Origin: Acidimicrobiaceae bacterium
GTDB taxonomy: Bacteria > Actinomycetota > Acidimicrobiia > Acidimicrobiales > RAAP-2
Reading direction: 5' to 3'
Assembly: GCA_027306585.1 (NCBI GenBank)
Contig: DAHUZJ010000076.1
Location: 1 to 48,187 of the forward strand
DNA length: 48,187 nt
Each line of letters starts with the position of its first letter. The stretch's first letter is position 1. The notes beneath the pieces were generated by a model. The model was not told the DNA's origin. It ran no database searches and saw only the letters and a list, made by a program, of their open reading frames with translations. Below, one piece after another: positions 9,648 through 12,663 of this stretch. The translations under genes were made by a program, and so were the position numbers.

Positions 9648-10163
9648 CTAGCCGACCTTGGCCGATGTGGCCTGCAGCCCGGTGAAGACGGCCACTACCT
9701 CGTCGAAGTCGGGGATCACGGCTGCGTCGTCGGTCGACCAGCGGTAACGGACCACGCCGTCACCGCCGACGACGAAGAGCGAGCGCTTGGCCAGCCCGGT
9801 GTGTCCCTTCCAGGCGTCGTAGCGGACGCCGTAGGCCCCGCACACGTTGCGGTCCCAGTCCGAGAGGAGCGGGAAGTCGATGCCCAGCGCCCGCTCGAAG
9901 GCCTGCTGGGAGAACGTGGCGGTGACCGCGATGCCGAGCACTTGGCCACCCGACGCGCTGATCTCCGGGACGCGCTGCCCCAACTGGGACAGTTCGTTCG
10001 TTCATATGGAGCCGAAGTCGAAGACGTAGAAAGCGAGCAGCGCCGGTCCGGACGCCAGCGTCTCGCGCAAGTTCACCTCGTGGTCGAAGGTGTGGCGCAA
10101 GGTGAAGTCCGGCGCCGTCTCCCCCATGGCCGGCCCGGGCCCAGGCCCGTGTAACGTCCCCAT
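9648..10163 (-). CDS. AhpE-like peroxiredoxin, candidate selenoprotein (TGA at the peroxidatic position)
   Basis: One peroxiredoxin of 171 aa read through a TGA at 10004-10002 (residue 54). Before it: GETAPDFTLRHTFDHEV and LLAFYVFDFGSI. After it, in the same frame: TNELSQLGQRVPEIS, VLGIAVTATFSQQAF, FPLLSDWDRNVCGAYGV and KRSLFVVGGDGVVRYRW. The TGA falls exactly on the peroxidatic Cys of the family (TGIC-QGELDQL in AhpE, PVC-TNEL in relatives). The following UGA-proximal hairpin fits a bacterial SECIS. ATG 10163 is chosen for its GGGGAG site; ATG 10127 is the alternative. It would reduce peroxides in the cytosol. It lies 37 nt after the crotonase-like gene on the same strand. A pseudogene with a single Cys-to-stop change is the alternative. 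Confidence 0.75.
9975..9992 (-). promoter_or_regulatory. Putative bacterial SECIS hairpin after the in-frame TGA
   Basis: On the coding strand, nine nucleotides after the TGA, CTGTCCC-AGTT-GGGGCAG forms a 7-bp stem (one U-G pair) closed by the tetraloop AGUU. Counting the U of UGA as 1, the loop is at 20-23 with G at 21. Bacterial SECIS elements have a stem-loop at this distance and a G in the first two loop positions (GU at 23-24 in E. coli fdhF). The hairpin lies wholly within codons 58-63 of the peroxiredoxin. Confidence 0.65.
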
Positions 10164-10200
10164 TCTCGACTGCTCCCCTCTGGCTACTTTCTCTGGCGCC

Positions 10201-10938
10201 CTAATTCTCGATGGCGCGGCCCGCCAGCCGCAGCGAGCCCAACACCAGGCGCTCGACCGCCAACCGGTCGACACTCGCCTGGTCGAGCGCCGCGGTCTCG
10301 GCGAGGAACGCCCGGATCTCGAGGTGAGCGCGGTGGGGGTGGGCGAGGAGTGCCTCTATCTGGGACGCCACCTCCTCACCCAGGGAGACGACGCTGCCCG
10401 CCACCCTGGTCACCAGCCCCAGCAGGGCGGCCTCGGCGCCGTCGACCTTCGCTCCGGTGGCGGTGAGCCGAAATGCCTGTTGCCGGCCGACCAGGCCGGG
10501 GAGCCAGGCGAGCACGACCGCCGGGGCCAGCCCCGCCTCGATCTCGGGGAACCAGAACCGCGCCCCGGGTGCGGCCACGGAGACGTCGCTCAGCGCCGCC
10601 AGGCTCACACCGAACCCGGCAGCATCCCCCGCCACCTCGGCCACCGTCACGAGCTGGCCGTCGGCCAGGGCCCGGTTGAGCCCGACGAGGGTTGCCGCCT
10701 GGTGCCGCAGGACGTCGATGTCGGTGCCGCCGCGGTCCCGCCCGAGGCAGAACGACGGCCCGGACGCCTGCAGGTGGAGGATCTCGCAGCCTTCCGGCGG
10801 CCGGCGAAGGAGCGCGATGAGCGTCTCGCACATGGCCATGGACATGAGGTTGTCGTCGCCCCGGTCGATGGTGGCGCGCAGGACGCGGCCCCCGTGGTCC
10901 AGGGTGAGCTCGAGGCCGTCGACGGTCGGAAGGGCCAT
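10201..10938 (-). CDS. Crotonase-fold (enoyl-CoA hydratase/isomerase-like) protein
   Basis: 245 aa, crotonase superfamily. The oxyanion-hole region reads SFCLGRDRGGTD and the second half VAGDAAGFGVSLAALSDV, then FWFPEIEAGLAPAVV. The Glu in FPEIEAGL is kept, but the first catalytic Glu of hydratases (GGGxE) is replaced in GFGVSLA, so simple hydration is doubtful. ATG 10938 shares a base with the stop of the aldehyde dehydrogenase (TGATG), so the two are translationally coupled. The true reaction is unknown. Confidence 0.8.
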   Translation of the reverse strand: MALPTVDGLELTLDHGGRVLRATIDRGDDNLMSMAMCETLIALLRRPPEGCEILHLQASGPSFCLGRDRGGTDIDVLRHQAATLVGLNRALADGQLVTVAEVAGDAAGFGVSLAALSDVSVAAPGARFWFPEIEAGLAPAVVLAWLPGLVGRQQAFRLTATGAKVDGAEAALLGLVTRVAGSVVSLGEEVASQIEALLAHPHRAHLEIRAFLAETAALDQASVDRLAVERLVLGSLRLAGRAIEN

Positions 10939-12452
10939 CAGTTCAGCCGCTCGTTGTCGCCGCCGTACCAGTTGACCCCCTCCGCCGCCAGGCGGACGGT
11001 CACGGAGCGCACCTCGGTGAAGTCGTGGAACGACTCCCAGCCGCCCTCTCGTCCGAGCCCGCTGTCGCGCACCCCGCCCCACGGGGACGCCGGGTCGAGA
11101 CGATGGTGGTCGTTGACCCACACCATCCCGTGGGTGAGGCGCTGGGCCACCCGATGGGCCCGGGCCACGTCTCGCGTCCAGATCGCCGAACCGAGGCCGT
11201 AGGGCGAGTCGTTGGCCATGGCGATGGCTTCGTCCTCGGTGTCGAAGGGGACCACCACCAGGACCGGACCGAAGATCTCCTCCCGTGCCACCCGCATCTG
11301 GTTGGTCACGCCGACGAGCACCGTCGGCTCCACGAAAAAGCCACCCTCGAGCCCCTCGACGGCCGCGGCGTGGCCGCCGGTGGCGACGGTCGCCCCCTCC
11401 TCCTGTCCGATGCGGACATAGTCGAGGACACGGTCTCGGGCCCGGGCGGAGATCACTGGGCCGAGGTCGGTCTCGGGTGAGGCCGGATCCCCGATCCGGA
11501 GCGCCCTGGCTTGTTCGACCAGACCTTCGACGAAGTCGTCGTGGATGTCGCGGTGGACCAGGAACCGGGTCCCGGCGATGCACGTCTGCCCGGCGGCCAC
11601 GAAGCCAGCGAAGGCCGCCCCGCGCACGGCGTCGGTCAGGCCAGCGTCGGGGAAGACGAGCACGGGTGACTTGCCGCCCAGCTCAACGGTGGCCTTGGCA
11701 AAGTGGGCCGCCGCCGCCGTGGCCACCGCCCGCCCGGCTTCCGTACCGCCGGTGAACGTGACCTTCTTCACGTCGGGGTGCTCGGCCAGGGCGGCGCCGG
11801 CCACAGCCCCCGCCCCGACGATCACGTTGAGCACCCCCGGGGGGAACCCGGCCTCAGCAGCGACGTCGCCGAGCAGAAGCGTGGTGAGGGGGGTCTGCTC
11901 GGAGGGCTTGAGCACCACCGAGTTGCCGGTGGCCAGGGCCGGCGCCAGGCTCTTCGATCCGATCATCAGCGGGTGGTTGAAGGACGAGAGGATGGCCACC
12001 ACGCCCAGCGGGAACCTCGTCGTGTACGAGTGGTAGGGGCCGCCGAGGGGGATGACGTCGCTCCGGTCGGCCACGAGCAAGGCGGCGTTGTAGCGATACC
12101 ACTCGGGGACGCGCGAGACCTGGGCCCGGGTCTCGCGGATGGGCCGGCCGTTGTTGACACTCTCGAGGGCGTACAGGTCTTCCAGGCGACGTTCGATCCC
12201 GTCGGCGAAGCGGTGCAACACCTTGGCCCGCTCGCGCGGGGGCATCTCCCGCCACACGCCCTCCTCGAAAGCTTGGCGGGCGGCGGCCACCGCGGTGTCA
12301 ACGTCCTCCCGCTCGGCGCACGCCACCTCGGCGATGGCCTGGCCGGTGGCCGGGTTGAGGACAGGGAGGGTTCCACCGGCGGCGGCCGGCACCTCCCGTC
12401 CACCGATCAGCAAGCCGCGCCGCACCAGCGATCGGCTCTCCAACGTCGTCAC
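10938..12452 (-). CDS. Aldehyde dehydrogenase, NAD(P)-dependent
   Basis: Oxidises an aldehyde to the acid in the cytosol. 504 aa, the standard length, with VLKPSEQTPLTTL, FTGGTEAGRAVATAA (cofactor binding), the general base in VELGGKSPVLVF and the catalytic Cys in AGQTCIAGTRF. GTG 12452 is preferred because GGGGAGG lies 6 nt before it; an earlier GTG at 12482 extends the frame but has no such site. It is the first gene of a minus-strand run with the crotonase-like and peroxiredoxin genes. The substrate is not evident. Confidence 0.93.
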   Translation of the reverse strand: MTTLESRSLVRRGLLIGGREVPAAAGGTLPVLNPATGQAIAEVACAEREDVDTAVAAARQAFEEGVWREMPPRERAKVLHRFADGIERRLEDLYALESVNNGRPIRETRAQVSRVPEWYRYNAALLVADRSDVIPLGGPYHSYTTRFPLGVVAILSSFNHPLMIGSKSLAPALATGNSVVLKPSEQTPLTTLLLGDVAAEAGFPPGVLNVIVGAGAVAGAALAEHPDVKKVTFTGGTEAGRAVATAAAAHFAKATVELGGKSPVLVFPDAGLTDAVRGAAFAGFVAAGQTCIAGTRFLVHRDIHDDFVEGLVEQARALRIGDPASPETDLGPVISARARDRVLDYVRIGQEEGATVATGGHAAAVEGLEGGFFVEPTVLVGVTNQMRVAREEIFGPVLVVVPFDTEDEAIAMANDSPYGLGSAIWTRDVARAHRVAQRLTHGMVWVNDHHRLDPASPWGGVRDSGLGREGGWESFHDFTEVRSVTVRLAAEGVNWYGGDNERLN

Positions 12453-12663
12453 GTGCACCCTCCCCAGGGTTGTGGACGGCACCCGGCCGCGCCGTCGGGC
12501 CAGCGGCCAACGTGGCGAGCCGGCGGCGCGGGTCGTGCGGTGCCCCTTGCGGGATCGACCCTAGCCGGGTCACACCTCCCTCGTGAGGAGGAAGCACTCC
12601 CCTCCGGGGGCCCGGTGCGACAGTGCGCCAGCACCGGTGGCCGGGCCAGGGTAGAGATGGGGG

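Follow-up and report, generated by a model that had tools for sequence, protein, structure and literature searches.

A Predicted Selenocysteine Peroxiredoxin of an Acidimicrobiaceae Bacterium with an In-Frame TGA at the Catalytic Position and an Altered Active-Site Motif

Results

The stretch of DNA analysed here (48,187 nucleotides of an Acidimicrobiaceae genome, referred to as the window) carries on its minus strand a gene that most probably, with a probability that we put at roughly 0.95, encodes a selenocysteine (Sec) peroxiredoxin of the AhpE/PrxQ-like branch, in which UGA would be read as Sec at the peroxidatic position by means of SelB, a hairpin in the message and a Sec-tRNA with the anticodon UCA. 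At the level of sequence, the analysis demonstrates a conserved stop in the catalytic column, a hairpin with covarying pairs, a complete set of Sec genes and an agreement of codon and anticodon across genomes. The source assembly is a draft of 138 contigs with a completeness of 92%. The features of the gene are as follows:

9648-10163, minus strand: predicted selenocysteine peroxiredoxin gene, ATG 10163-10161, TAG 9650-9648, 171 residues with Sec54 (read-through translation)
10002-10004, minus strand: in-frame TGA, the putative codon for Sec54, the peroxidatic residue (translation and homologue column)
10011-10025, minus strand: codons of VFDFG, the active-site segment before Sec, where PxxxT is located in canonical peroxiredoxins (alignment)
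9840-9842, minus strand: codon of Cys108, candidate resolving cysteine, present in 14 of the 16 members of the clade
10173-10180, minus strand: GAGGGGAG, purine-rich sequence ahead of the ATG, probably the ribosome-binding site (direct reading)

The frame from 10163 to 9648 contains a single in-frame TGA (10004-10002) across 171 residues, and neither a second stop nor a frameshift was seen in it. The Pfam AhpC-TSA domain was matched with 90 bits (cut-off 26) over residues 14-140, a range which spans the TGA, and in alignments with Cys homologues the column of the peroxidatic Cys is the column of the TGA. The original prediction, which described a peroxiredoxin frame interrupted only by a TGA at the catalytic Cys, is borne out by the read-through translation, the domain match and the alignments. 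A scan for promoters and terminators gave no result.

Conservation of the stop codon was followed at several levels. A comparison with 100 related genomes gave five close homologues at 66-77% identity, which belong to a single other genus of the same bacterial family; each has exactly one TGA, at the same codon. The homologues that rank next, with at most 39% identity, have no TGA at the Sec site. In a profile search of named genomes, 29 homologous loci were found with TGA (24), TAG (4) or a Cys codon (1) in the Sec column, where the TAG forms belong to three Geodermatophilus and one Blastococcus, and the sole Cys form is a TGC in a Halobacteriales archaeon. The same-codon TGA of the five homologues, taken together with 24 TGA and 4 TAG forms among 29 loci, is therefore far beyond chance. 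Additional TGA forms were obtained from a phylum-wide search. Six family genomes, and dozens of others from Actinomycetota, Chloroflexota, Acidobacteriota and Bacillota, carry a stop at this same codon within an intact frame. On either side of the stop codon, dN/dS is lower than 1. It had been proposed that homologues from related genomes be aligned at this position; close relatives keep the stop and not Cys, and these comparisons, together with the Sec genes, the matching anticodons, the hairpin and the further selenoprotein genes described below, identify 10163-9648 as a predicted selenoprotein gene and not a pseudogene.

In the phylogenetic tree, the bacterial Cys forms are separated from the stop-codon forms, with which the single archaeal Cys form groups. 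The gene of the window is sister to a gene from an Acidimicrobiaceae metagenome-assembled genome, both inside an actinobacterial clade of 16 members (support 100/99), while the deeper branching among the Sec groups is poorly resolved, with long branches. The Halobacteriales Cys form (locus L099, 5001-5504) carries an FYVFDF segment, which in this set is otherwise found only in Sec forms; horizontal transfer with a change from Sec to Cys is possibly the origin of this form.

Downstream of the TGA, a hairpin of the bacterial SECIS type is predicted:

9970-9997, minus strand: SECIS-like hairpin, CUGUCCC (9992-9986), AGUU loop (9985-9982), GGGGCAG (9981-9975)
9997-9995 with 9972-9970, minus strand: short outer helix below the upper stem (a prediction from the window sequence only)

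The hairpin folds with -15.6 kcal/mol (z of -2.4), and its stem begins after a gap of 9 nt from the UGA. It agrees with the published rules for bacterial SECIS elements (PMC13188914), having a stem of 7 bp, an AGUU loop whose second position is G and a spacing of 16 nt between the UGA and the loop. The AGUU loop is identical, and six core pairs are formed, in all 16 clade members; three stem pairs covary, with both sides changed. In one member (L094), two of the covarying pairs alter the protein (Ser to Leu and Gly to Glu) and the stem is preserved. The covariation score exceeded that of every slid register and was equalled by none of 500 shuffles, a count which is optimistic since the sequences are related. 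Codon choice within the hairpin is also particular, as its Leu codon is TTG in 16/16 members, whereas in the rest of these genes TTG accounts for 10 of the 210 Leu codons.

The original prediction had further proposed searching the genome for selA, selB, selD and tRNA-Sec. All are present in the same genome, clustered in some 5 kb on a single contig: selA (392 bits), selB (239 bits), selD (374 bits) and a tRNA-Sec with the anticodon UCA (69.8 bits). The SelB score is slightly lower than the curated cut-off of 242 bits, and the protein has the SelB-specific winged-helix and beta-barrel domains; the SelD of this genome is the Cys form. Long SelB-like frames were found in 8 of 61 genomes of the window's family, and the Sec peroxiredoxin occurs in six of these eight and in none of the remaining family genomes, although five of the six are from one genus, so they do not represent six independent events.

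The Sec codon matches the tRNA-Sec anticodon in all 20 genomes in which both were found, 16 being TGA with UCA and 4 being TAG with CUA. The latter are four Geodermatophilaceae (L158-L161, with L087, L089, L090 and L092), whose CUA tRNAs are labelled tRNA-Pyl by ARAGORN on the basis of the anticodon, yet score 64-67 bits on the tRNA-Sec model. A tRNA-Sec was not found in three genomes with the TGA form (G192 with L132, G486 with L093 and G489 with L097), possibly because of incomplete assembly, an unusual tRNA-Sec or decay.

Besides the peroxiredoxin, targeted family searches revealed at least two selenoprotein genes in this genome. One encodes the alpha subunit of formate dehydrogenase, FdhA (L187, G000:C122), in which an in-frame TGA occupies the canonical Sec position (SCNRT-U-HAPSV). 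The other, a candidate selenoprotein with a WUGPC motif (L077, G000:C97, 2-1504, minus strand), combines a YNCE/NHL-like beta-propeller with a TlpA-type domain and adjoins the sel genes; its TGA is conserved in seven genomes, and the L077 copy is truncated by the end of the contig. Near the sel genes there is also a streptavidin-like protein (L077, 6988-7665, plus strand), with 59 bits, which is under the curated cut-off.

Two genes lie directly upstream of the peroxiredoxin on the same strand:

10201-10938, minus strand: crotonase-fold (enoyl-CoA hydratase-like) gene, directly upstream (Pfam ECH_1; 67-71% identity, syntenic in two other genomes)
10938-12482, minus strand: aldehyde dehydrogenase gene, second upstream (Pfam Aldedh, E 1.9e-170; 81-83% identity, same order in two genomes)

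The suggestion that neighbouring genes are decayed does not apply to these two, which are intact. The crotonase-fold gene is separated from the peroxiredoxin start by 37 nt, and the two are likely on one transcript. The aldehyde dehydrogenase gene terminates at an ordinary TGA, overlapping the start of the next gene. The pair is thus found upstream of the peroxiredoxin in three genomes (10201-12482, minus strand, in the window), and in a third other genome the tail of an aldehyde dehydrogenase lies just upstream of it; this hints at a role of the peroxiredoxin linked to aldehyde or acyl-CoA metabolism.

The AlphaFold2 model of the protein has a mean pLDDT of 94.2. Its top fold matches are all peroxiredoxins, the nearest being archaeal PrxQ/Bcp and AhpE of M. 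tuberculosis. The PxxxT/SxxC(U) motif was not found in the window protein, which reads VFDFGSIU. Pro is replaced by Val and Thr/Ser by Gly in all 16 members of the actinobacterial clade; Sec relatives outside this clade keep Ser/Thr and have Val, Thr or Leu in place of Pro, and the bacterial Cys forms retain Pro. Across the Sec forms examined and the bacterial Cys forms, loss of Pro appears to track the use of Sec. In an alignment of 50 sequences, Arg127, Asp49 and the Sec/Cys position are invariant. Cys108, frequent in the clade, is not universal across the wider family. The original description of the protein as AhpE-like holds as a statement of similarity (32% identity and a fold match) but not beyond it; the missing PxxxT had been overlooked in that description.

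Discussion

An internal stop in a gene from a draft genome may have simpler explanations than recoding. A single substitution is enough to turn an ancestral TGC or TGT into TGA, and errors do occur in draft metagenome assemblies, so the gene could in principle be a pseudogene. This is very improbable, since six family genomes and dozens of others across four phyla share the position of the stop and have intact frames, dN/dS stays below 1 downstream of it, and the codon is TAG exactly where the tRNA-Sec is CUA. A genome-wide reassignment of TGA to an ordinary amino acid, e.g., Trp, would also be compatible with an open frame running through a TGA. However, the aldehyde dehydrogenase of the same cluster ends in TGA, which is evidence against such a reassignment; among the AhpC-TSA matches of the genome, an internal TGA is confined to the peroxiredoxin and the WUGPC protein, and the internal TGAs examined sit at catalytic Cys/Sec positions, which leaves this explanation with a negligible probability. 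Hardly any weight can be given either to the idea that the gene is split into a short N-terminal peptide and a separate C-terminal protein restarting at the in-frame TTG at 9983, because the conserved hairpin has that TTG in its loop, neither half alone would be a peroxiredoxin, and the halves are conserved as a single protein. The pseudogene, the reassigned code and the split gene were all rejected.

A different matter is what the Sec protein does. Because the canonical PxxxT motif, which has been linked to hydrogen bonding with peroxide (PMC13188914), is absent, peroxidase activity cannot be assumed. The replacement of both Pro and Thr in the 16-member clade would suit a selenoprotein whose main role is thiol-disulfide oxidoreduction or redox sensing, but the invariance of Arg127 and of the Sec/Cys position in 50 sequences, the absence of a UxxC or CxxU redox motif and the peroxiredoxin fold speak against it, and we consider such a main function unlikely. 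A Sec peroxiredoxin remains the preferred reading, and it is plausible, as was predicted, that Sec in the attacking position makes a faster peroxidase. To hypothesize further, a distinct clade of Sec peroxiredoxins may have lost the Pro and Thr of PxxxT, with selenium chemistry substituting for part of the machinery that binds and activates peroxide; we offer this tentatively, at somewhat less than even odds.

For the Sec peroxiredoxin, the following sequence of events can be proposed. SelB would bind the hairpin, whose loop lies 16 nt past the UGA, and bring Sec-tRNA(Sec, UCA), so that the UGA would be decoded as selenocysteine 54. The selenolate of Sec54, aided by the conserved Arg127, would attack hydroperoxides and form a selenenic acid, which may then be reduced by Cys108, or by a small thiol or a thioredoxin-type partner.

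Because standard gene calling splits or omits the gene, it is easy to overlook a selenoenzyme that is widespread among actinobacteria and in other phyla. The altered active site also makes it testable what selenium contributes in a peroxiredoxin without the conserved Thr and Pro.

Among proteins with known structure, the closest in sequence and fold are PrxQ/Bcp of Aeropyrum pernix (2cx3, 4gqf), Bcp4 of Sulfolobus (3hjp) and AhpE of M. tuberculosis (1xxu, 4x0x), with 32-36% identity, all of which are Cys enzymes or their mutants, whereas the window protein would have Sec. AhpE is described as a 1-Cys peroxiredoxin, a type defined by a catalytic Cys without a resolving one; the window protein, 32% identical to it, has a conserved second cysteine, Cys108, which may or may not act as a resolving residue.

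Sec peroxiredoxins are themselves an established family, described by the motif T/SxxU (PMC1794560, PMC1088965, PMC13188914). PrxU (NCBIfam NF040737, TxxU type, PF00578) is likewise an AhpC-TSA protein with a peroxidatic Sec and a bSECIS, but it has PxxxTxxU where the window protein has VxxxGxxU, and the latter scores 42.4 bits where the cut-off for PrxU is 270; no NCBIfam model matches the window protein at its cut-off. A GxxU peroxiredoxin is absent from an inventory of 2026 that covers 119 families and subfamilies of prokaryotic selenoproteins. No paper naming the GxxU clade was found in the open-access literature searched, although such an absence is weak evidence. Judged from the alignments, it is the active site that departs from the textbook family, with PxxxT/SxxC becoming VFDFGxxU, and not the use of Sec, which is already known in peroxiredoxins.

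A close published case is the AhpC selenoprotein of Blastococcus saxobsidens DD2, with Sec encoded by TAG (Santesmasses et al. 2017, PMC5330540), and the use of UAG for Sec in Geodermatophilaceae was published there as well (PMC5330540). In the four Blastococcus and Geodermatophilus genomes with the TAG form, no strong AhpC-TSA match other than the clade peroxiredoxin has a TAG, and it is likely that the published Blastococcus AhpC belongs to exactly this clade. Together, these genes form a natural codon experiment, in which one protein and its hairpin use UGA or UAG depending on lineage, with the tRNA anticodon following. The AhpC of B. saxobsidens and the window gene have in common a selenoprotein of the peroxiredoxin superfamily, a stop at the catalytic residue, a downstream bSECIS and a matching tRNA-Sec, while the window gene differs in its UGA with a UCA tRNA-Sec and in coming from another lineage of Actinomycetota.
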